The notes under the pieces: model-generated
What the model was told of the DNA's origin: nothing
Database searches by the model: none
What the model saw: only the letters and a program-made list of their open reading frames with translations
In this document: positions 6,274-64,000 of the stretch, in pieces
How positions within the stretch are numbered: the stretch's first letter is position 1
How the letters are laid out: each line of letters begins with the position of its first letter
Source of the DNA: Rugalucina vietnamica
Lineage: Eukaryota; Mollusca; Bivalvia; Lucinida; Lucinidae
Direction: 5' to 3'
Assembly: GCA_964017185.1 (NCBI GenBank)
Contig: OZ024875.1
Coordinates: 45,959,986-46,023,985, forward strand
DNA length: 64,000 nt
Position numbers and translations under genes: made by a program

Positions 6274-6321
6274 TCAGTATATTTCAAACTCCACAGGATA
6301 GTGATCACTTACGTCCCTCAT
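6274..6321 (-). CDS. DNase I gene exon 9 (stop)
   Basis: A 48-nt terminal exon, [15 protein letters not shown] then TGA. It contains the last catalytic histidine in the SDHYPVE signature. Acceptor ATTTTCAG. Confidence 0.88.
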   Translation of the reverse strand: MRDVSDHYPVEFEIY

Positions 6322-9300
6322 CTGAAAATATACCAATATTGATTCAGAATGCATTTAGTGCCAATGTATCAAGCGTTAAAACTGCAAGTTGATTATGTGG
6401 ATACATGATACATTAAGTGAAAAGTTCAAAAGTCCATTGATAATATAATATTTTCAGACGAGTGTAAAAAGCGAATTTGACATATTAGTGTTTAACAACA
6501 CCATTTACCAAATACACTTAGCATGAAAAAAAAAAGTTAAAATGAGGTGTTCAGTGATTTTGATAAATGCATGGGAAAACAAACAATTTGCATAGGCGAA
6601 AACAAAGGCGCAGATCAGCTTTGCAGTGACACTGCGAAGCTGATCAGCGCCTTTGTTTTCTCTACACGGATAGTACTATTACTCTAGTTTCTAAATACAA
6701 AATGTCCAGCCTCTAGCCATATTCTGTCACTGTACAAGCCGGTTTTTGTCACACCTAGTCGGAAACCCAAATTGTTGGTTTTCTCATGCACAGGCCCAAA
6801 TGTTGTTTTATCCTTAATTTTACGATGGCCACATTTGCCTATATCTCCGAAATAATTGGATTCCAAAGGGGTTCGAAAAGTGTTAGATAAGAAAAAATAA
6901 GACTGAGAACTTTTAAGAGCAGTGAACATATTAATGAGAAAGGGGATGGGCCACACCGCGGTTTCGGCTTCTTAAGCCTCTTCAGTGACACTATAGGGCC
7001 AAAGAGAATGACTGTAACTTTGCAATTTTCAACACGCCGGTCGATACAAGGAGAATGCTCTCGCTGATCTCAATGAACCAAAACGAAAATATAATCTGCA
7101 CTATGGATGTTTTTCGAGGAGTCTTTTTAGGGAGTTAAACGAGGCAAACAAACTTAAACTTTTTTCAGTCTCCTCCGTAAATCATCCATAGTGCAGATTA
7201 TATTTTCCTTTTGCTCCTTTGAGATCAGCGAGGATATTTTGAGAAATCTTTGAAATGATTATCGGTTTCGATACATTTTATAACCACTATTTAATATATA
7301 TGGCCCTATTGGTATAATCTCAGGAAAACATGTCCGTGAAATGTATACTCCGGGGGTAAATCTATTTTTCTACCGAGCCGGTTCTAACATGTATCCACAA
7401 TCAATGTTTTGATCAAAGATATTAAAATTATCCAAAATGTTCCAATGGAATGTTCAATTTTTGCTTCTGAAAAAAAAATCTCTGTATATTGTATGGGCAA
7501 GTTTCGAAATGTTATACTAGACTTTGTACCGAATACTCTGTGGAAAGTTGCAAAATTACAGTAATTTTCATTGGCTCCATTTTGCCAAATCTAAAGTGTC
7601 ACTGACGAGGCTTGAATAGCCGAAACCGCGGTATGGCCCATCCCCTTCTTAATAAATATGTTCACTGCTCTTAAAGGATCTTAATTTTATTTCTAATCAG
7701 ATGCAAATTACATGTAAAAGGTGCCTTACGCGGTTATAGTCCAATTTGAATACGTCTTCAAATTTGTATATGCCTGCACTACCAGGTACGACAGCGTTTG
7801 GTAGGTTCGGTCCACTCACCACAATCCTGAAATACAAGTGACGAATGGTCTCGCTATTCATTGTCCATTGGATGAGTAAATTTTCATTGTATGGGCATGT
7901 AGTTTTTAAAAAAGGTACATATAGGCAATGATCAGGAAATGGCGCAAAAAGAAATAAAATCCCACTCCAAAAACCGAGATGGGCTAAACTAAATTGACAA
8001 TAATTATTATTTGGAGGTACTTATACTAAGAAAGCATATCGTAAGCCGAGTGAGCAGCTTCTTTCCTAATAGGTGGCCACTCAGCCACCCAAACCCAACT
8101 AAAAATTCAACACCAAGACATAAAACAATAAGAACCACAACAGAAGTATCACAGAAGTATCAGTAATATAAAATTACTGGCGGGCTAAAACTAGTTTTAC
8201 ATGGCCATAACCTCAACCTCAGCTTCTTTAGTGGTTCACAACATTAAATTAAGTGTTCGGCCCTCGTGGTAAACCTCGAATCATCAAGGACAACAAACAA
8301 ATAAATGATTTATAACCACCATGATGAATCAAACCGACGACTCACAGATTCAGTAAGTTGCCCGACGATGGAGATCCCTGGACGCCCAATAAGTTACTGA
8401 AAATCCGAAGTCGAATTAAAAGCCTCAATTACATCAGCTTGATTGTCATGGTTAAGCGAATCCATGAAATCGCTTTCGTAGCAGTATAAAAATAAATCAG
8501 CTACTAGAGGTGCGCAATTTGTACCCATCGGAATTCCAACAATTTGTCTGTATAACTTGGTTCCAAATCTAATAAAAATATTGTCCAGGAGAAATGATAA
8601 GGCGTCACATACATTCTGACATGACCAAGGTTTATATCGACTTTGGTCAGATCTTTCTGTTATTACAGGCCAAATAGGGTGAACCATATTTAAGTGCTCT
8701 ATCCACTCTATCAAATCGAATAGTTTTTCCGAAGTTTCATCAGATTATGTGGCAAAGCAAGAGGAGGTACTGCACTGTACGTGGAGCGAAAACAAAGGCG
8801 CTGATCATCTGTGCAAGTTACAGTACAGCTGATCTGCGCCATTGTTTTCGCATAGGAAAAATTCCGGGTTTCTCATGATGTGGCTCAACTATTTAGCACC
8901 TAGTATATTTTGTCATAATGACGATAATGAAATGTCTGTCCGAAACATATGGTACATTATTTAATAAAAGTTTCACTAGTAAAATTAAAAAAAAAAAAAA
9001 ACATGTCATAATAACAAGTAATCATTCACAACAGAGGACAGGAGTCCCATAAAATGGAGGCAGCGTCCCGACATGACCATTGCTGTTGACTTAAACGCTC
9101 AGCAACAAATCAAACAAACGATCAAAAATAAAAAAGTTAACTCATTTAAGCCTGGCTTACCTATCATGGGACATAGGCAAACAGAATAGCCCCAGATGTG
9201 ACGCCGCAGAACGCGGCGTCCCATCTGGGGCTATTCTGTTTGCTAAAAGTAATTTCGTCGAAAATTGAAATAAAAATAAAAAATCCTTTCTAACAACATC

Positions 9301-12300
9301 CCCAAAAATGAAAGTGGACTCTCCCATAAAATAGTGATGGGAGAATCTATTCGTCATTAATGGGTTTATAAAATGAGCCGCCTCATGGGAAAACCAACAA
9401 TCTGCATAGGCGAAAACAAAGGCGCAGTTCAGCTTCGCAGTAACTGCGAAGCTGATCAGCGCCTTTGTTTTCGCTACACGGATAGTGCAATTCCTCTACT
9501 TTCTAAATCCGAAATTTCAAGCTTCTAGCCTCCTTCTGTAGCTGTACAGGCCGGTTTGTGTCAGACCTGTTCGGAAACCACATTGTTTGTTTTCCCATGC
9601 AGCGGCTCAAATAAAGGTACCTGTCATAAGAACAGGTGGTGCCAGTGCTGGTGGTGGTGTCCACATCAGAGCCAATGAGCCACTGGAACATACTCTGTGT
9701 GTAGATAGGTAGACTGGTGATCTCGGGTTCGCTTGCGTAGCTACAGGCGGCGTTGAAGTCGCCCAATAAGACAATGTCCTACAACCACCAATAGCTTCAG
9801 AAGTGTCAAATCGTAAAAGTAGGCAATGATCAGGAAATTGCGCTATCGGGAAGAAATTTCCACCCCAAAAACCGAGGTGGGAAAAACTAGATTAACAATC
9901 AGGTACTTATACTAAGAAAACAAAACATGAAACATTGGTTTTAAGTTATTGAAGAAATTGACGCAGAGCATACGGTGGATGCTACCGACTCTGTGGCAAT
10001 TTCTCTGCCTATCCAAATTAATTCCACCCGCATAAGTTATACACCACATATTCTTATCTCAGAAAATATGGCTTTATTTGACATTTGGCTAGCTAAGGTA
10101 TAACGACTATTTTAGCCGTCTAAAACTTCAAACCTACCTTCACATCAGTCCATGTCTGTATGACGTCATCGTAAACGTCAATCAAGTTCCGCATCTCATC
10201 TACAGCATGGTCTGGCTTAGCATGGATACCAATCAGTGCAAAGTCCCATCCAGCACCTGACCGCAAAACTCACAAATAAAATATAAAGGTTTGATCTTTA
10301 GTTTCTGTTTAGTTCCATAAAATCACTTAACATTTTTGTCTCTAAATCCAACACTATATCAAACACTCAGATAAGATTGTTGGCATTTCGAAGGATAAAA
10401 GATTAACGCTTTTTATTTAGGGTAATGATCAGTAATTGCAAATTTTCTATATTTTGGAATACATGCTTAGTTTGTATGTACCTGAACCAACTGGTCTGAA
10501 TCTGACGGAGTATGGTTCACGCTCAAAAAGATCATTGGCATCATCATTGTACTGCAAAGCACCAGTGAGCGTCAGTCGGTCAAGCCTGTATATGAAAACA
10601 GATTTCAAATCAGCTACAATGTCATGCACAGTGCACTGAGTCATCAAAGTCAAAGAGTAAGTACGCGTAAATTGTGTAGTAACGATGCAGCAAGTTATAT
10701 GAGCTTTGATACATTTCAGTTCAAATTTAAAACTGAGATCCTTTAAGAGCAGTGAACACCACAGGGGCCTGTATCGTCATTTTAAGGCTTTATGGGGAAA
10801 AGTATGTACAAGGGTGCTTTCGCTGTCAAAATACCCATGTTCGAAAACAATTTACAGCGTGAAGACAGTCATTAATTTGGAAGAATTGTACAGCTTGGGT
10901 GGCAGAAATATGTCTTCTTTACAGTGTTTACTATATTTGATACAGCATGGGCTCATGTTTTGAACATAGTTGCTTGGAAAAGTCCAAAAATTGTCATTTT
11001 TTTCAGCCGTTGTAGTTAAGCCTGTCCAAACACTTTTTTATGTTTTTTATGAAAATTTAATAAATATAGGAATGATTCTCCTGACCTAATGGCCATAAAT
11101 GAAAGTACTCTGTCTAGGCTCTCTGATAATGGTATTTGTGTCTCATAACTCATGTGAATTGCGCCATGACAGGCATTTTTCTTCATTTTTCATTGCTCTA
11201 GAAAATATTTTGAAAGCTGACTTCCATTGTTGTTGTGGTCAAAGGTCAATCTAGGACAACACAAACTGATTGGTTAATATTGAAAACAAAATTATTTTAA
11301 CCAGTCAGATCGCTTGTTTCATTTACCTCATCAATTTATGTCAAGATGGTGGACAGCTGTCAAAACTCATGACTAAACAATGAAAAACACAGAAAAAAGC
11401 CTTCCATGCAGTGGATTGCATGAGTTGTGAGGCAAAAATACCATGATCAGAAAGATAAGACAGAGTACTATCAGTGGATTGCAATTAAGTTTGGAGAATC
11501 TTTTCTTACATACCTCTATCATAAAGATAGAAAAATTCCGGTATTTTAGTGGTGGTAGATAAATCGATCTTACACTGCTGGTTTGGTTGCTCATGCAAGA
11601 TAAGAAAAGCATGCGATATAATTCGATCGTTTCTACTGCTTGCAGCAATGGCGTTCACCAAAACTAGACAAAAGTGTTGTTTTTCACAGCGAGTATTCTT
11701 GAATCACGCTCGTTTTAAAATAAAAACAAATAAAAACTACATCACTATCGACTTTGACAGCGATTTATTTACATTTGACGTCACATCCGTAATATGCACA
11801 ACGTCACAAGGGTTAAAGCACGGTACCAGGTTACGTTACCGGTAAAAGGATAAAATCGGAGTATGTAAGAAAAAGAATCGATCATGGGTGCCCAGTGGAG
11901 AAAGGAAAATCCCAACCCTCGGGTCCACCGTTCCAGTGGGAAACTCGGCGAGCCTCGTTTCCCACTGGAACGGGTGGACCCTCGGGTTGGGATTTTCCTA
12001 TCTCCACTGGACACCCATGATGGATTCTATTTATCTATATTAATTAACCTAGTTACAATCAGATTTCAATACAATGATTCTTAAAACATCATTGAGCATG
12101 TACATACTCGAGTTGGAAGGTAAGTTCTTTCTATTATCCGTACATGTAATGTTTCTATCATTTTTCTGCCGTTTACCTGTAAAAGTAGGCGTATTGTTCC
12201 TTGTAACTGGTTCTCCCAAGGCGTTCACTAATGGACAATCCGTAAGATCTGGTTCTGCAACATTCCCAGCGGGCACATGACGTCAGAATGACGTCATATC

Positions 12301-14269
12301 AACGTCGATGCGACGTCAGCGCATGACGTCAGAATGACGTCATATCAACGTCGCTGCGACGTCATGACGTCGCATCGACGTCGATCTGACGTCATTCTGA
12401 CATCATGTGCCTGCTGGGATTAACTTTTCTTTTGAGACGGAACAAAGAGGCGAATGCATGCGGGAATTTAGGCAAAACAGATATTGACATACATGTGTGT
12501 GTCATTTAGCAAATAAGAGAATCTGTGAAGCTGGAAGAAAGGGCAGAGAGCGCAAAGCCGGAGCCAATAGGCCATCACCGGTCTCTTCAACATTGACTTG
12601 CTCTACTTGCAACCGACGGTTTAGACCTAAAATTGGTCTAGTCAGCCATCAAAGAGCACACCGGCACACATGCACAATCTAATAATCAAGGAATATAGAT
12701 GGTCTAAGACCATGCAACTATAGTTTAGTTTTTGTGAGTCGCTCTGTGGCGCAACAAGATGCATAAAACTGTCGAAAGGCAATATGCTGCTTTTCAGATT
12801 AAACATGATAGAGACTGTGTTTTATTTTAAATAGTGTAGCGAAAAACATGGCGATAATCAGCAAAATAGAGAATTTACAAAACGAAAAGCCTTTTGCGTT
12901 TAAGGCGATGCGATGATGCGCTGAACACCCCCGTCTTCATATTAAAGCAAACATCTCAAGGACAAACTCAAAAATAGTTTGGTCTCTACATTATAAACAC
13001 CTGTACAGACAATAACCAGAGATGTTTAGAACTGTCAAACATGTATTCTTTTTTTTTGTTCAAACACATAATTTGTGGGTATACATAATCTATGTTTTGG
13101 ATCAGAAATAAGAAAATAGGTATATCCCTGCAAACCCCAGTTTTTCTATATAAAAGTGGGGTTTATGGAGGTATACATTTCATGGACATGTTTTTCTGAT
13201 GATAAGCTTTCAAACCAAAATATAACAATCCTTACTGATTGACCATAGACCAGAGCTGAATCACGGACTCTTGGCTTATGTCCCGTATCTCTTGTATGAG
13301 GATAGCGTCATAGCGTAGGACAATCTGCAAAATAATACAAATCCAACGACAGATAGATCTGTTATGCATGAAACTGTATAGAAATCATATAGAATTTAAA
13401 AATCCGACACTGCTATCAATTGAACGCGAGCAGTTCCACCATACAGGGTCGCAAGAATTGTACATTAAGCCGTTTAGCCTCTCGTGATTAGGTTTTGTAA
13501 ACAATTGAAAAGGAGTATCTACTAGCTTTAGACATTTTTCCAGTGCCATGTACGTAAATAACGTGGGCATGTCTTGTTACCATAATATGCATAATCTCTT
13601 GTTGAAAACATACCCATTTGAAGCAGTCCTGTCCACAAATGCAGATCTATGTCAAAGGTAAACCGGCACGGTTATACAAACAAATGCAGTTTACTTCTTA
13701 CCTGTGTGATATAGCCGGCCACCTCAGCGTCACTCATTTTAGCTCTTCCAAATGTTTTAATGTTGAACGCACCGATCCTTATTACATGCGGTAAAGGATC
13801 ACCAACTTTTCCAACAGCTTCACGAACTTGCGCAGGGTATTTTGATTCATCGCTGAGAGTTTTGGGAGCGGTGAGTGAACGAGCATTGCTGTTGTTGAGG
13901 GCACACAGTAGGACCGCAGCACAGAACACTAAAGTCAGTTTCGTGTTCAGGTTTCTGCTAAATAATGAACCAAGGGATTTTAGGGTCTTTCCATGCCCGT
14001 TTAATTAAAAGAGCTGCACAATCAGATGACAGATTATTGTCTTTCCATCGGTGCTTCTTTGTTCTTTTGGGCGTTTCCCACCGTTGACTTGAGACTTTGC
14101 TCTCCTTGCTTCGGTTACTGGTCATTGCTAAAGTGCTTTGTCGTTTGGATTTAAAAAATGAAACGAAAAGGAAAAAGTAGGAAACAAAGTCTTGAAAGAT
14201 CTTAAGCGGCTTTCTAAAACATCGGAAACGTATAAATGGAAAAAAGTATACGTACCTGAGGGCGTACAT
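6274..14269 (-). CDS. DNase I-family secreted endonuclease, nine exons
   Basis: Predicted Mg/Ca-dependent endonuclease of the DNase I family, cutting DNA outside the cell or in a digestive or vesicular lumen. Exons in transcript order: 14256-14269, 13702-13957, 13236-13324, 12177-12254, 10482-10585, 10138-10256, 9621-9778, 7730-7826, 6274-6321. All have AG/GT borders and matching phases, giving 963 nt and 320 residues, close to the 280-320 usual for the family. Residues 1-30 form a signal peptide. Expected catalytic residues are present: E102 (LIQEIRD), H192 (GIHAKP), D227/N229 (LGDFNA), D272 (CSYDR), H312 (SDHYPVEF). C232 and C269 match the family's conserved disulfide. The [11 protein letters not shown] motif is in exon 4. 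Introns carry family A, F, R and other transposons, plus a LINE fragment. The gene looks intact. Family assignment is firm; the exact member (DNase1 or DNase1-like) is not decided. Confidence 0.9.
6567..6798 (-). mobile_element. Family A MITE (A2)
   Basis: Contains AAAGGCGCAGATCAGC and GCTGATCAGCGCCTTTGTTT flanking a short loop, then the asymmetric arm with CACTGTACAAGCCGG. In DNase I intron 8. Confidence 0.75.
6905..7682. mobile_element. Foldback element of the AAGAGCAGTGAA repeat
   Basis: Left arm 6908-7110 and right arm 7180-7680 are inverted copies (CACCGCGGTTTCGGCTTCTT against AATAGCCGAAACCGCGGTAT; ATAATCTGCACTATGGAT against ATCCATAGTGCAGATTAT). F1 has landed in the right arm. In DNase I intron 8. 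Confidence 0.65.
7318..7508 (+). mobile_element. Family F MITE (F1)
   Basis: CAGGAAAACATGTCCGTGAA to GGGCAAGTTTCGAAATG. Hairpin half deleted. Inserted in a foldback element of DNase I intron 8. Confidence 0.7.
7730..7826 (-). CDS. DNase I gene exon 8
   Basis: Encodes [20 protein letters not shown] and [10 protein letters not shown], matching the family's strand after YDR. Acceptor ATTTCAG, donor GTAAGG. Confidence 0.85.
7912..8720 (-). mobile_element. Family R retroelement copy with RT core (R3)
   Basis: Minus strand. An RT segment (8397-8714) contains [20 protein letters not shown], the conserved RT motif, then [11 protein letters not shown]. It is joined directly at about 8395 to the 3' UTR tail (7912-8393), so the C-terminal ORF region seen at 63400-63916 has been deleted. 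It lies in intron 7 of the DNase I gene, on the same strand. Confidence 0.75.
8779..8890 (+). mobile_element. Family A MITE, partial (A3)
   Basis: Only the hairpin (GCGAAAACAAAGGCGCTGAT) and one terminal repeat (TTTCTCATGATGTGGCTCAA) are left. Confidence 0.65.
9141..9362. mobile_element. TTAA-flanked hairpin MITE, copy 1
   Basis: CTCATTTAAGCCTGGC, then a near-perfect hairpin from AACAGAATAGCCCCAGATG to GGGGCTATTCTGTTTG, ending ATGGGTTTA. In DNase I intron 7. Confidence 0.7.
9374..9609 (-). mobile_element. Family A MITE beside a DNase I splice donor (A4)
   Basis: TGAGCCGCCTCATGGGAAAA to CCATGCAGCGGCTCA, flanked by AA on both sides. It ends 11 nt inside the intron after exon 7. Confidence 0.82.
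9621..9778 (-). CDS. DNase I gene exon 7
   Basis: Encodes [20 protein letters not shown] and ends TTCSYDR, giving the metal-site D/N pair, the disulfide cysteines and the YDR aspartate. The GTACCT donor lies 11 nt from the end of a family A transposon (9374-9609). Confidence 0.9.
9815..9915 (-). mobile_element. Family R 3' tail, 100 bp (R4)
   Basis: GTAAAAGTAGGCAATGATCA followed by the CCACCCCAAAAACCGAGGTG block; truncated after TATACTAAG. In DNase I intron 6. Confidence 0.7.
10138..10256 (-). CDS. DNase I gene exon 6
   Basis: Encodes [19 protein letters not shown], with the catalytic histidine, then [13 protein letters not shown]. Acceptor CGGTCAG, donor GTAGGT. Confidence 0.9.
10482..10585 (-). 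CDS. DNase I gene exon 5
   Basis: Encodes [19 protein letters not shown], the typical FEREPY segment. Acceptor ATATACAG, donor GTACAT. The open frame continues upstream of the acceptor and by chance reads SVFIYR, but exon 4 already supplies that residue block. Confidence 0.88.
11866..12030. repeat. Long near-perfect palindrome (about 65-bp arms)
   Basis: CATGGGTGCCCAGTGGAGAA to TCCACTGGACACCCATGATG with loop ACTCGGCGAGCCTCGT. AGAAAAAGAATC lies at one flank, as in the palindrome at 49440-49585. Confidence 0.75.
12177..12254 (-). CDS. DNase I gene exon 4
   Basis: A 78-nt phase 2-to-2 exon encoding [16 protein letters not shown], a DNase I signature. It is needed for a full-length protein. A palindromic transposon (12265-12418) ends only 10 nt upstream of this acceptor. 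Confidence 0.88.
12265..12418. mobile_element. TGACGTCA-rich palindromic MITE at a DNase I acceptor
   Basis: Inverted ends CCCAGCGGGCACATGACGTC and CATGTGCCTGCTGGG with an ATT 3-bp duplication. The palindrome contains many TGACGTCA or GACGTC sites. It ends 10 nt before exon 4 of the DNase I gene. Confidence 0.75.
12497..12682 (+). pseudogene. C-terminal C2H2 zinc-finger tail of a LINE polyprotein
   Basis: Encodes [18 protein letters not shown] followed by a finger, [20 protein letters not shown] and RAHRH. A Cys-x2-Cys finger with RIGLxSH-type residues is common at the C-terminus of invertebrate LINE reverse transcriptases. Only this end is left. It lies in intron 3 of the DNase I gene on the opposite strand. 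A real small zinc-finger exon is the alternative. Confidence 0.45.
13070..13203 (-). mobile_element. Family F MITE, half copy (F2)
   Basis: From TGTGGGTATACATAATCTAT through AAACCCCAGTTTTTCTATAT to GGACATGTTTTTCTGATG. Confidence 0.7.
13236..13324 (-). CDS. DNase I gene exon 3
   Basis: Encodes [12 protein letters not shown], which holds the catalytic glutamate, and ends in phase 2 at a GTAAGG donor. The acceptor is TTTTGCAG. Confidence 0.88.
13702..13957 (-). CDS. DNase I gene exon 2
   Basis: Encodes the signal-peptide core ([13 protein letters not shown]) and the first nuclease strand ([12 protein letters not shown]). Acceptor ATTTAG, donor CAG/GTAAGA. Its frame continues from the ATG at 14269. 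Confidence 0.88.
14256..14269 (-). CDS. DNase I gene exon 1 (start codon)
   Basis: A 14-nt coding exon, M-Y-A-L plus two bases, followed by a GTACGT donor. It joins exon 2 in phase and supplies the only in-frame ATG ahead of the hydrophobic signal peptide. Upstream 5' UTR and promoter are not defined. Confidence 0.7.
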
Positions 14270-17264: not shown

Positions 17265-18631
17265 TAGGGCTGTCACACATTCGCGTATCGACTCACGTAT
17301 CTACGGCGTATCGAGATACGAAAGGTACGTCACACGTACGTCGTAGATACGTGGGCATACGTAGCTCATACTCTTCGATACGTAGCTCATACTCCTCATA
17401 CGCCGTACATACGTCACACATACGTGGTACATACGAAAGCAACGTGGCAGGTACGTCGTAGATACGTACAATGTAGCTCGTACTCCTGATACGCCACACG
17501 TACGTAGCGGTTAAAATGCCACGTAACCGTGACGTATGTACAGCGTACCTTTCGTATCTGCTACGTATGCGTGACGTATGTGTGGCGTATCCTCAAATGT
17601 CTTTTCGTATCTACGGCGTATCAGCGACGTACGTGTGGCGTATCTCGCGTATCAATGGCGTATGTGCTACGTATGTGCTACGTTCGTTTCGCTACTGTGG
17701 AGTATGTGTGACGTATTAGGAGTATCAGGAATATTTTGTGGCGTTCCAAGAGAATCTTAATGCTTCTATATGTATGTTTTCGTTTTTCCGAAGTCATGGA
17801 TCAAATGTTTCTCACGGTTCTGGGTGTCGTGCATGGTTCTTTCATGGCTACGCTTGGTGTAGCCTCCGTCTTTGTTCATAAGGTCTTACGACCAGGATAT
17901 AGAGCTTGAAGATGTTCCCCCACCACCACCACCACCTCGGTTTTTTCGGTGTTAATCTAGATTATCTAGATTTCTCCGGTGGCATCTTCGACCTCTTTTA
18001 TGAGCCTGTGCGTGAGAAAACCAACAATTTGGGGTTCCGACCAGGTCTGACACAAACCAGCCTGTACAGTCTCAGAAGATAAGAGGCTGGAAATTTTGGA
18101 GTAGAAAGTAGAGGAATTGTACTATCCACGTAGAAAAAAACAAAGGCACTGATCAGCTACGCAGTTAATGCGAAGCTGATCGGCGCCTTTGTTTTTGCCT
18201 ATGCAGACTGTTGTTTTTTTCCATGCGGCGGCTCATATTTGATAACTATAATAATGTGCGAATTGCATGAGCAAAGTGAACACAACCGTTTGTTCTCATA
18301 GGTATTAAAAAGCAATTGGTACAGAACAGATACGCCGTAGATAAGAATGGAACGCAGTACATACGCCGTAGATACGTCACGCGTACACTTCATACGCCAT
18401 ACATACGTCACACGTACGTAGCACATACGCTTTGATACGCCGTACATACGAAAGTGAAATTCCATACGAATACAGATACGTCACGGATACGCCACGGGAA
18501 CGTAGCAGGAACGTCACACGTACGTGGTACATACGTCTCTCGAGCAAAATACGGCTCAGACCTCGGCGTATCAACATTTTCATAGATACGTGAGCGATAC
18601 GCCGCTGATACGTGAATGTGTGACAGAGCTA
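17265..18631. mobile_element. Transposon with ACGTA-repeat terminal arms
   Basis: Ends TAGGGCTGTCACACATTC and GAATGTGTGACAGAGCTA, flanked by TTA on both sides (17262-17264, 18632-18634). Arms of about 480 and 300 bp are degenerate arrays of GTACGTxGTACATACG-type sub-repeats in inverted orientation. The middle has a family A MITE. Open frames here are repeat artefacts. A 3-bp TTA duplication fits PIF/Harbinger-like elements, but no transposase is present. Confidence 0.72.
18001..18235 (+). mobile_element. Family A MITE nested in the ACGTA-repeat transposon (A5)
   Basis: TGAGCCTGTGCGTGAGAAAA to CATGCGGCGGCTCA with a TA duplication. Full hairpin with GCTGATCGGCGCC. Confidence 0.8.
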
Positions 18632-56722: not shown

Positions 56723-57301
56723 GAGTTCTTGTATAATTATTGAGAATGGGTAAACGTATGCAAATTGTGGCAGTTGAGAGTAGAAACAATACATATTGTC
56801 GTATGTCCTAAACGATGAACAAAATGAAACTACTTTCAGACATAAACGTGTGACATAAATATGTAGATCTAGTTTATTAAAATATTTTGACGTTGTTAGG
56901 AAAGTTTTAATTCTTGTTAACAAACGATCATGTATTATCCGAACAAGTTTTGGGAAATCACAGTTTTTTTGTTAAAAGAGATGACAAGATTGTACAATAA
57001 ACCTAGGGAACACATGCCTAATGGTGCCTTCATGGTACTTCGCAGACATGGATAAATCGGAGTGAACATGGCCTTTTTGTCCAGTTCGAATTCTAAGTTT
57101 TAATGAATAGTAGAATATTTTGTAGTAAAAACTATATATATAATTGTATTACATGTACGTATATTAGAAAATAAAGTATTGGACTTTTGCGACTTCTAAC
57201 AAAATTTGTGCGTTTCGAAAGTAAAATATCTCTTATTTGAATTGTTACTGAGGTTTTAGTGAAATAGAAGCAGTGTTAAAGGAGTAATCCCTGTTTTGCA
57301 G
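56723..57301. other. Region upstream of the Toll-like receptor exon
   Basis: Ends in the receptor's TGTTTTGCAG acceptor. The missing start exon could be here or further upstream; an ATG/GTACTT junction near 57033 is one weak candidate. Confidence 0.3.
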
Positions 57302-59104
57302 GTCCTTTGTGACGTCATACTAGCTGTACTGGTAGTGACAGTAACCACCGTGCCTGACCAATCAGTCTCCACAATCTGTACACAAAATCAAGATACCCTG
57401 TTATGTGAAGGCTTTATTCCTGTTGAAGTTCCAACTACTGTAAACAAAATAGTACTTGACCAAGTAAGTCCAAAGGAATTCTACCACGGTAGATTTTGTG
57501 AAGTCTCCTGGAGCAATGTCACTGAACTGTTCATTAAGTCTTTAGCCTCCAAAACAATATATTTGGACTTCGAGGATGGTGTCTTTGATTGTTTGTCCCA
57601 GATAAGTACCTTCGAATTGAGCAGTCAGGTACTTAGGCATTACACGGCCTATACATTCACCGGCTTATCAAATGTAACCTGCTTCTCTCTGACAGACTGC
57701 AAAACTATTCACTGGAGAGATTTACATGCTTTAATCTCTATTCCCAAAAATCTTCCAAAGCTCGAACATCTAAGCCTATCAGGGTCTGGGATTTATGACG
57801 AAGAACTCAACTTAAACCAGGAGCTTATCAATTCATTGTCAAAGAGACCCATTATCAGCCTCGATGTCAGCTATACAAGCCTGTTGTACAACTTTTCATC
57901 TGTGGATGACTTGTGCAAGTCACTGACAACTTTGCGTGATGCCGGAGCTCACAGTGACAAAACTGATCGCTTTATGAAAAGCGGCATATGTCGTTCTTTG
58001 AAAATCTTGGATAACAGCGATTCGCAGTGCCTGAGAGACCGATTTCACAATGTAAGGTGCGTCAATGCTGAGCATGGACTATTCTTTACAGCGCGTTTCT
58101 TCAAGGCAGTCCGGAGCGTGTATATCGATAAATTTGCAACAAAAGAAGTTCACTTTCGTATGAGCAACTGCACATTTTTCTTGTTTAATAAGTCGCAAGT
58201 TAAAGAGGTGCACTCCTCGCACAATCATTTTGAAGATCTCGACGCTGAATTGATCAACGACGGGCTTGAACTATTGGATTTCTCTTACAACAGTATAAAG
58301 AAGATCAACCAAAATGCTCTGAGAAACTTAAGTTCATTACACGTGTTGGATATATCCCACAATAAATTAGACAAGGCTAATATTTCGGAATTGTTTAAAC
58401 ACAACGTCGAGCTTCGAATTATACACTTATCCTCGAACAGACTTAAACATATACCTGCTGATATTTTTAAATCAAATGTCAACTTGAGAGAACTATGGAT
58501 GGTCAAAAACAGACTCCAGCAGATACATTTTAATATCACACATCTTGTCAACTTGACCATACTCGACTTGAGGCACAACGAGATAAAGACACTAGACAAA
58601 ACCTCGCAAAAGCTCTTGGAGGCCTTGTACCACAACCAAATTAGGCACTATGACTCGTTCAACGACCCTTTCATGAACCGTACCGTTGATTTTCGTTTAC
58701 AAGGAAACCCGTTCGCTTTTGACTGTGACGCACTCGCCTTTGTGCAGTGGTTTGCCGATTCACCTATCTTTGTTACATCAAAGGAGACATATAAATGCCA
58801 GATGAATGGACAGGAGTTTCAAATGGGAGAGAATGCTGTTAAAGCCGCTAAGTCAGATTGCGCACGTATCGAACGTGAAAAGCTTAGGCTGTTGCTTTCA
58901 GTAACGCTGTGTCCGTTCTGTGCGTCCCTGATGATCTCTGCAGCCATTATAATTCACAAACGACGCAAGCAAAAGTTGCTCGACCAACGCTTTGCCAGTG
59001 GTATTAAGCGCCTAAGAGACAACGGGACCCTATTCCCAGTATTCCTGTCGTATTCAAGTGACGACGCAGAGATTATTAAGCAACACATGTTGAAACCCTT
59101 TCAG
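57302..59104 (+). CDS. Toll-like receptor exon with LRR, membrane span and TIR box 1
   Basis: An 1,803-nt exon from a CCCTGTTTTGCAG acceptor to a CAG/GTATTA donor. The open frame runs on past the donor into a family A transposon and gains a false C-terminus there. Confidence 0.88.
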
Positions 59105-60819
59105 GTATTAAATGAGCATATGCGTGAGCAAATTTGGGTTCCGAACAGGTCCGACACAAACCGGGCTGTACAGTCACTGAAGATGGTTGGAGGCTGGAAA
59201 TTTTGGATTTAGAAAGAAGAGGAATTGTACTATCCGTGTAGTGGAAACAAAGGCGCTGATCAGCTTCGCATTTACTGTGAAGCTGATCTGGGCCTTTGTT
59301 CTCGCCTATGCGGATTGTATGCGGCGGCTGAAATGTATATGTAACGCTGACTTGATAGTATCAAAATAAATAAAAGCAAAACTGACCTTATGCCAAATAA
59401 AGACAAATATAGAGGGTGTTAAGAAAGTTCGTTCCGCACTTTACCACATGGTTTGAAATTATTTTATAGGCAAAACTAATGAAACAATGCACTTTCCATG
59501 AATCTGTTGTTTTCTCAGATACAATATAGCAGTTGAAACGCTATCTAATGTCGAGTTGCTTCACAGTTGTATATTTTCTAAGGGTACTATATTTTACAAA
59601 TTCGGGAAATATTCGATTTTTTGAAAAAATTGTAAAAACTTTGACATGTGATTTTTCTTTTCGGGTTTATAATTGAATACATCACAAAACTATTATGAAT
59701 GGCTAATAAGTAGTGTATTTAGGCTTTATTCATTAAATTATACAGGATTCTTATGCATCGGTCTCGGCACGGCAAAGATATTTACAAGTATATCCCCATT
59801 TTTGTGTAAAAGTTCAAGGGTTAGAAAATGGGTGCCAGTGTTTGATGGCCATTTTGTTCATGATCAGATATCTGATTTAAAACTCCTTTGCTTTTATTTT
59901 TTCATATACAACCAAATTAAAGTCTTGTTATGTCATTTTTAAGTTTTGAAGCATCACAGCCAAGCTACCCGGAAAGCAATTTTTGCGCGGAACGAACTTT
60001 CTTAACACCCTTTAGGTAAAAACTCTGACTTAGAAAGCGGTCATCCATCTGCCACCCCTGACTTTAATATTATCTAAAACATCTAACATCTGAAGACAAT
60101 AATAGCGAAACTAGAATCAACAAAACGTGTGAGCAGCACCTTTTGAATGACAAGTAATAAACAACTAGCGCGACTAGCCATTTAAATATTTGGAAATGTG
60201 TCCCGTATTTCTTTGCATTACGAAAACGAGCAATGTTTGTATCTATTGTTCACAAATAATCCATATCATTGAATGCAAATGTCCCTACGTCCCTAAAATC
60301 ACAAAGCAAGAACCAAGGTCAACAGATGATTTGGTATGGCTGTAAGAACTAAGACTAAACAACAAATTTATAGTGTCGATTTAATATATGGCTGCAAAAA
60401 TAAACATATTATTGTGCATTGTTTTTGTGTGTTTTTTCATGATATTTTAGGAGAGCCTGCAGTCAATCACGAAGTTGGACCGGGAGCTTGTGTGCAACGC
60501 CGACGCCCACTTTACTCCAGGCCGCATGTTGCTGAGAGAAATATTTCGATGCCTTAAACAGTGTGAAGTTCTCGTTGCCGTCATTTCAAAGAACTATTGC
60601 AAGAGCAAATATTGTCGTTATGAAATGGAACACGCCCACTTGTTGGAGAAGCCAATCATTCTGATATTCTTAGAACATGTTCCAGTGGACGAGATGAACC
60701 TGCTTACGAGGGAAGTTTTCGAAACATTCACGCGAGTTCAGTTTTTGAAGGAGAATGAACAGTATAAACTAGAGCCTGGCTGGAAAGAACTTAGTGAGTC
60801 TATCATACAGCTGATGTAA
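57302..60819 (+). CDS. Toll-like receptor (start exon missing)
   Basis: Exons 57302-59104 and 60451-60819 join in phase 0, giving 723 residues plus an unseen start. Order: hydrophobic leader (DVILAVLVVTVTTV), divergent N-terminal region, leucine-rich repeats from about residue 320 to 450 (LHVLDISHNKL, LRIIHLSSNRL, LTILDLRHNEI), a cysteine-bearing LRR C-cap (NPFAFDCDALAFVQWF), a membrane span near residues 527-551 with RRKQK stop-transfer, and a TIR domain from about 576. TIR box 1 is FLSYSSDDAEI. Box 2 is HFTPG instead of RDxxPG, keeping the BB-loop proline. The canonical FW of box 3 is reduced to GWKEL. Expected role: pattern recognition and MyD88-type TIR signalling at the membrane. The repeat array is short for the family. 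The frame has no ATG before 57302 and follows a TTTTGCAG acceptor, so an upstream exon must supply the start. Confidence 0.88.
59113..59331 (+). mobile_element. Family A MITE in the Toll-like receptor intron (A13)
   Basis: TGAGCATATGCGTGAG to TATGCGGCGGCTGA with AA flanks. Starts 8 nt after the exon donor at 59105, leaving the coding exon intact. Confidence 0.8.
59413..60011. mobile_element. 599-bp MITE in the Toll-like receptor intron
   Basis: Inverted ends AGGGTGTTAAGAAAGTTCGT and ACGAACTTTCTTAACACCCT, perfect over 20 bp. No transposase. It fills nearly half of the intron. Confidence 0.78.
60451..60819 (+). CDS. Toll-like receptor exon with the rest of the TIR domain
   Basis: Acceptor GATATTTTAG, then ESLQSITKLDREL, HFTPG, CEVLVAVISKNYCKSKYC and ending SESIIQLM-stop. 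The frame continues directly from exon 1. Confidence 0.87.
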   Translation, partial: ESLQSITKLDRELVCNADAHFTPGRMLLREIFRCLKQCEVLVAVISKNYCKSKYCRYEMEHAHLLEKPIILIFLEHVPVDEMNLLTREVFETFTRVQFLKENEQYKLEPGWKELSESIIQLM

Positions 60820-63355: not shown

Positions 63356-64000
63356 GCAAATGGATTTGTTTCTTCTAAAATTTATGATAAGCGCGATGAC
63401 TTTGATTTTGATATAGTAAATTTTCCTTTTTTGGATGGTGACGTTCCTCGTCGTGCTTCTTATGGTGTATACATTTCGCAACTTATTAGGTTTGCTAGAG
63501 TCTGCAATCATGTTACAGACTTCAACGCTCGAAATAAATGTTTAACGGCAAAACTTCTCCAACAGGGCTATCGGTATCATAAACTTCGAAAAACCTTTTC
63601 TAAATTTTATCGTAGACACTATGAATTGATTTCCAAATATAATGTTGGGTTAAAGACACTTTTAAGTGAGGGCCTTTCGGAACCTGAATTTTATGGTGAC
63701 TTGGTTTACAAATTAAAGAAACTTAAAGGAATAAATGATTTTTCTCTTCAGTTCGGAAAAATCATATCACGTTACAGACGTATAGGTTATAACTTGAATG
63801 TTATGCGACAGTCTGCATGCTTAGTTTTTAACCCAATCATGGTTGATAACTATGCTGCCTTCTTTAATTGCACGCCGGTGGGTCGGGCGTCAGACTCTAT
63901 GATGGCCCCGACTTAAAGCTATTCATTTTAGTTGGTTGGGGCCGGAGCTTCTTGTCTGTTGCTTGGCCCACCGGGGTCCAACTGGTGTTTTTCTTTTGCT
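63356..64000 (+). mobile_element. Family R retroelement, 3' part with RT ORF C-terminus (R12)
   Basis: The frame ending at 63916 reads SSKIYDKRDDFDFDIVNFPF, then GDVPRRASYGVYISQLIRFA and ends GRASDSMMAPT. This is the C-terminal part of the reverse transcriptase protein whose core survives in the copy at 7912-8720. The copy is 5'-truncated near 63356 and runs off the window. Its 3' UTR (TTGGTTGGGGCCGGAGCTT) matches the reverse complement of 34070-34125, which links this ORF to the tail family. Confidence 0.75.

Follow-up and report, generated by a model that had tools for sequence, protein, structure and literature searches.

The DNase I gene within the 64,000-nt stretch of Rugalucina vietnamica DNA analysed in this study (hereafter, the window) raises the question of whether two hairpin-forming insertions located very close to the borders of exons 4 and 7 disturb the splicing of the gene, or are simply tolerated. 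The coordinates of the features discussed are listed in Table 1. Joining of the nine exons yielded a coding sequence of 963 nt with GT-AG borders and zero internal stops, and this gene model placed exons 4 and 7 at the same positions as the initial annotation. The least certain part of the model is exon 1, which contributes only 14 coding nt (the ATG and 4 codons). At the start of exon 2, there is a NAGNAG acceptor (tandem TAG/CAG at 13955-13957); either choice is in frame and lies within a signal-peptide-like N-terminus.

Table 1. Features of the DNase I and TLR-like genes and of the elements inserted near their splice sites
Feature	Position	Strand	Remarks
DNase I gene	6274..14269	minus	nine coding exons, 320 codons plus stop
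DNase I exons 1-3	14269-14256, 13957-13702, 13324-13236	minus	
DNase I exon 4	12254-12177	minus	78 nt, codons 120-146
DNase I exons 5-6	10585-10482, 10256-10138	minus	
DNase I exon 7	9778-9621	minus	158 nt; donor CAG/GTACCT at 9620
DNase I exons 8-9	7826-7730, 6321-6274	minus	
Foldback palindrome, intron 3	12265..12418	none	154 bp, ACGT-centred repeats, CCCAGC termini
ATT target duplication, exon 4 side	12262..12264		flank sequence
ATT target duplication, far side	12419..12421		flank sequence
CTGAC candidate branch site inside palindrome	12282..12286	minus	A at 12283
Family A MITE, DNase I intron 7	9375..9608	none	GAGCCGC...GCGGCTC ends
AAAT target duplication, first copy	9371..9374		flank sequence
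AAAT target duplication, second copy	9609..9612		intron 7 positions +9 to +12
TLR-like gene	57296..60819	plus	LRR exon to 59104, intron 59105-60450, exon 60451-60819; 57296 is not an established 5' end
Family A copy, TLR-like gene	59114..59330	plus	AAAT on both sides

The predicted protein matched solved DNase I chains, including that of bovine DNase I, with an E value of 1.2e-63 over residues 64-317, and it also matched Pfam PF03372 (9e-10). This region aligns end to end with DNase I (EC 3.1.21.1; PDB 9fju, 1atn, 1dnk) over the full catalytic domain, contains both the acidic and the histidine motif blocks, and differs from these structures in being two residues shorter right after the exon 3-4 junction. 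Exon 4 encodes Glu139 of the YKEQ block, which aligns with Glu78 of bovine DNase I. We take Glu78, along with His134, Asp212, and His252, to have catalytic roles in DNase I. Among the seven internal exons, exon 4 alone has a length divisible by 3, so that its skipping would be in frame, as had been pointed out previously, and would eliminate the residue aligned with Glu78.

The element in intron 3 is a palindrome whose arms (12264-12318 and 12365-12419) are 93% complementary over 55 nt. Its CCCAGC termini at 12265 and 12418 had a chance expectation of 0.00 matches in shuffled sequence, and it is bounded on both sides by ATT, a target duplication of three bases in a single case. The RNA form of this element is predicted to fold at -118.9 kcal/mol (z -16.5), with an equally stable fold in 0 of 200 shuffles. 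The earlier proposal that this palindrome is a true, hairpin-forming insertion with intact ends located 10 nt before exon 4 (12255-12264) is thus upheld. The palindrome contains eleven ACGT cores, with successive gaps of 11, 11, 11, 13, 11, 11, 11, 8, 11, and 11 bp, and no other stretch of the window shows an 11-bp periodicity as strong (lag-11 match of 0.58; the highest value among 50 shuffles preserving base composition alone was 0.48). The observed/expected ratio of CpG is 1.71 in the palindrome and 0.87 in the window. Because three of the four mismatches between the arms (12271, 12281, and 12301) are transitions at CpG, the palindrome appears not to be brand new and to have resided in methylated DNA.

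Within the window, the end pattern of the palindrome matched its own two ends alone, revealing no further copy, and scans of viral_contigs returned no relatives of either the palindrome or the element in intron 7, which we refer to as family A. The short end pattern of the palindrome was detected in 29 stretches of genome_contigs, mostly from GC-rich bacteria and archaea, but TGACGTCA, an octamer present in the palindrome, was found in none of the 29. In two of these prokaryotic stretches (L004 and L011), the opposite end also matched loosely, which we attributed to chance. Another foldback in the window, located at 17270-18626 (about 1.36 kb), has CTGTCACACATTC at both ends and arms of CGTA/TACG repeats with an 11-bp period, representing a second 11-bp-phased type of element in the window. 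By eye, this foldback has TA flanks; a family A copy (18002-18234) is nested within it.

Foldback-type elements with internally repeated termini include Foldback and Galileo of Drosophila and TU of the sea urchin. Similar to these elements, the ACGT palindrome and the foldback at 17.3-18.6 kb consist of inverted repeats with arms made of short repeats. They differ, however, in their 11-bp period, in the small size and ATT flanks of the palindrome (154 bp), and in that no transposase was linked to either of the two. In our literature search, no paper was recognised as describing the palindrome or family A. Bivalve genomes have been reported to be rich in MITEs (PMC10294476), and MITE-like repeats occur in molluscan introns, as in the haemoglobin of Lucina pectinata (PMC4732748). 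Likened by description, the latter repeats share with the present inserts a short, non-coding structure, terminal inverted repeats, and a stable predicted fold, and are likewise associated with working genes, occurring in introns and promoters; the relevant passages of that source report no target duplications, whereas those of both inserts described here are exact. The pearl family MITEs of bivalves, as described in PMC5139131, are also miniature elements with internal tandem repeats, but these repeats are satellite-like and far longer than the 11 bp of the palindrome.

Family A is a multi-copy element. We found 23 matches to its core in the window, where none would be expected by chance, and handled 13 copies, nine of which run end to end and four of which are partial. 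The copy in DNase I intron 7 has arms (9374-9404 and 9579-9609) that are 87% complementary, contains a near-perfect internal palindrome at 9410-9474, and is predicted to fold stably as RNA (z -10.1; 0 of 200 shuffles equally stable). With 94.8% identity, this copy is the closest to the consensus of eight aligned copies, the other seven showing 83-89% identity. Exact 4-bp A/T target duplications flank four of the nine end-to-end copies (A1, A3, A6, and A9), and the flanks of the remaining five match at 0, 3, 3, 3, and 2 of 4 positions as placed; the last of these (A8) has ATTTT on both sides once its start is moved to 51378. The terminal repeats and the exact AAAT duplication confirm that the intron 7 copy is a true insertion, as the initial annotation had stated, and one that just misses exon 7; the interval is 12 intronic nt, which the initial annotation gave as 11 by including the following base. 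The view that the two inserts belong to unrelated families is also borne out.

The donor of exon 7 has a matrix score of 1.65, the third lowest of the eight donors. It is unaltered to +8, with the target duplication occupying +9 to +12 and the element following from +13, and its U1 site is therefore the same as before the insertion. The donor GT is paired in the predicted fold of the occupied site, and in the empty-site fold it pairs, by eye, with exon sequence. By eye, a minus-strand open frame at 8397-8744 in the same intron looks like a reverse transcriptase of the Penelope-like type; it has no Pfam match. Additional inverted-repeat inserts are present in introns 4, 7, and 8 (11870-12032, 11100-11473, 9177-9243, and 6895-7692). 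An introner origin, in which the elements would have made the introns, was rejected, because introns 3 (981 nt) and 7 (1794 nt) reach far beyond the elements, the borders of which differ from those of the introns.

The initial annotation described the exon 4 acceptor, with its upstream tract now inside the hairpin-forming element, as poor in pyrimidines. The description holds, in that 8 of the 16 positions from -20 to -5 are pyrimidines, the second lowest number among the eight acceptors of the gene (7 to 12 of 16 in the other seven, with exon 7 the lowest at 7/16). The idea that the insertion made the tract poor does not hold: the empty site, reconstructed by deletion of the palindrome and one ATT, has 5 pyrimidines at the same positions, and the tract was thus already poor before the insertion. 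In contrast to the pyrimidine count, scoring with a 3' splice matrix gave -2.74 for the occupied acceptor, the lowest of the eight, and -0.42 for the empty site; 37% and 16% of 331 decoy AGs, respectively, scored as well or better. All matrix scores derive from approximate matrices rather than from a species-trained model. The two measures disagree in direction on the effect of the insertion. Because the matrix score of the occupied site is lowest and falls below that of the empty site, some weakening of the exon 4 acceptor by the palindrome is possible.

In the empty site, the interval 18-40 nt from the AG lacks a consensus branch site. The palindrome carries a candidate, CTGAC, whose A precedes the end of intron 3 by 28 nt with no AG in between; this motif sits 18 nt from the palindrome end in both orientations. 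The presence of a yUnAy motif at 18-40 nt is unremarkable by itself, because such a motif is found at four of the eight DNase I acceptors and at 130 of 316 decoy AGs (41%); CTGAC itself occurs at 10 of the 316 (3%). In the predicted fold, CTGAC is base-paired throughout, the branch A being paired with a probability of 1.0 and the acceptor AG with a probability of approximately 0.37. If the hairpin is looped out, the distance to the AG would be 24 nt for a non-consensus CTCAA located upstream and 11 nt for a consensus TTAAT beside the insertion, compared with 21 and 8 nt, respectively, before the insertion. A candidate branch site is conceivably available in either the folded or the unfolded state. 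Seven cryptic AGs are present upstream of the acceptor, five of them inside the palindrome. In-frame exonisation of the palindrome through these AGs was rejected, because the use of any of the seven leads to an early stop (codons 121-137).

Taken together, it is probable that both inserts are ordinary, tolerated MITE insertions in a working DNase I gene, with exon 4 mostly included. Two non-autonomous DNA elements of unrelated families landed in introns 3 and 7 just short of the splice signals, leaving the entire U1 site of the exon 7 donor in place next to one of them, and meeting at the other an acceptor whose paucity of pyrimidines is older than the insertion. The palindrome may contribute its own branch site at -28, or the long hairpin may loop out and bring the old upstream branch region to approximately 24 nt from the AG. 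Because the element would supply a branch site or loop out, exon 4 probably remains part of most transcripts, some skipping may have been added, and the insertions would be neutral or nearly so. In line with this reading, such elements abound in the window, which contains 74 inverted-repeat pairs of at least 24 nt within 400 nt.

The stronger alternative effect, raised in the initial annotation as a possible inactive isoform, that the palindrome weakens the acceptor enough to cause regular in-frame skipping and the production of a putatively inactive DNase I-like protein lacking the Glu78 equivalent, appears unlikely. The lowest matrix score among the eight acceptors, the predicted burial of the branch site and, in part, of the AG within the hairpin, and the location of the Glu78-aligned residue on the sole frame-keeping internal exon are consistent with it; however, the tract was even less pyrimidine-rich before the insertion, the palindrome supplies a candidate branch site, and the coding frame is intact. 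It is also improbable, although conceivable from the position of CTGAC near both ends of the palindrome and of family A just inside donors, that palindromic MITEs of this kind act as splice-transparent docking elements. According to this idea, the palindrome would be tolerated 10 nt from the acceptor because its folding removes it from the branch-to-AG distance.

A regulatory role of the palindrome was considered in addition to its effects on splicing. TGACGTCA is described as the canonical CRE and as usable by CREB at a distance in a previous report (PMC1796609), and five of the ten exact copies in the window are located in the 154-bp palindrome, compared with 0.86 expected per window. Together with the ACGT cores, of which 8 of the 10 gaps are exactly 11 bp, this clustering would fit a mobile array of candidate CRE (CREB/ATF) sites that makes the nuclease gene inducible. 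We regard this as very unlikely, because the internal repetition of the palindrome accounts for the sites and intron 3 is not promoter-proximal.

The short distances between the inserts and the exons may also reflect a bias in where such elements land or persist. With random placement in introns, the chance that at least two of eight inserts lie within 12 nt of a DNase I exon is 0.020, or 0.003 if sites at <10 nt are forbidden; the eight inserts are selected inverted repeats, with one nested palindrome counted with its host, and the 12-nt limit was chosen after the data had been seen, so this clustering is suggestive only. At the end of the window, a SECIS_1 match was found on the plus strand at 63891-63958 (39 bits, E 0.00025, above the gathering score), beginning shortly before an open frame (63431-63916) terminates; this frame is retroelement-like by eye.

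A family A copy was also found near a donor in a TLR-like gene. The LRR exon of this gene matched LRR_8 (1.8e-19), and joining of the two exons restored a TIR domain (TIR_2, 7.7e-12). The donor is CAG/GTATTAAAT, with 59104 as the last exon base, and family A begins 9 nt beyond it. If the intron is overlooked, the open frame looks as though it were cut inside the TIR domain by family A. Thus, family A copies lie 9 and 12 nt inside the donors of two unrelated genes, and the GGTTCCGAACAGGTC-like end faces the donor in both cases. These positions and the matching orientation raise the possibility that family A has a preference for exon-intron borders or is best able to survive there, and that the same may hold for the palindrome; AT-rich targets right after donors or insertion favouring nucleosome edges at exons are possible causes. 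With 9 or 13 copies and an assumed 20-80 donors, the binomial probability of at least two copies near a donor is 0.0005-0.016; it is 0.002 to 0.056 when either kind of splice site is counted, again with 20 to 80 assumed donors. However, this comparison is post hoc and assumes how many donors the window contains. In addition, a search of open frames adjoining a GT or AG revealed no convincing exon beside the other 11 of the 13 copies, the one further candidate peptide has no Pfam match, and AAAT/ATTT targets are frequent (26.6 per kb). We regard a border preference as unlikely and favour the ordinary tolerance of both insertions.

If this reading is right, the DNase I gene provides a clean example of how closely a hairpin insertion can approach the splice signals of a working gene. 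The location of family A beside two donors is the most interesting lead from our analysis. A border preference, if genuine, would make it simple to test across a genome whether exon-intron borders are where some MITEs are targeted or are retained by filtering, and whether a terminal repeat bearing a branch site makes them tolerable.
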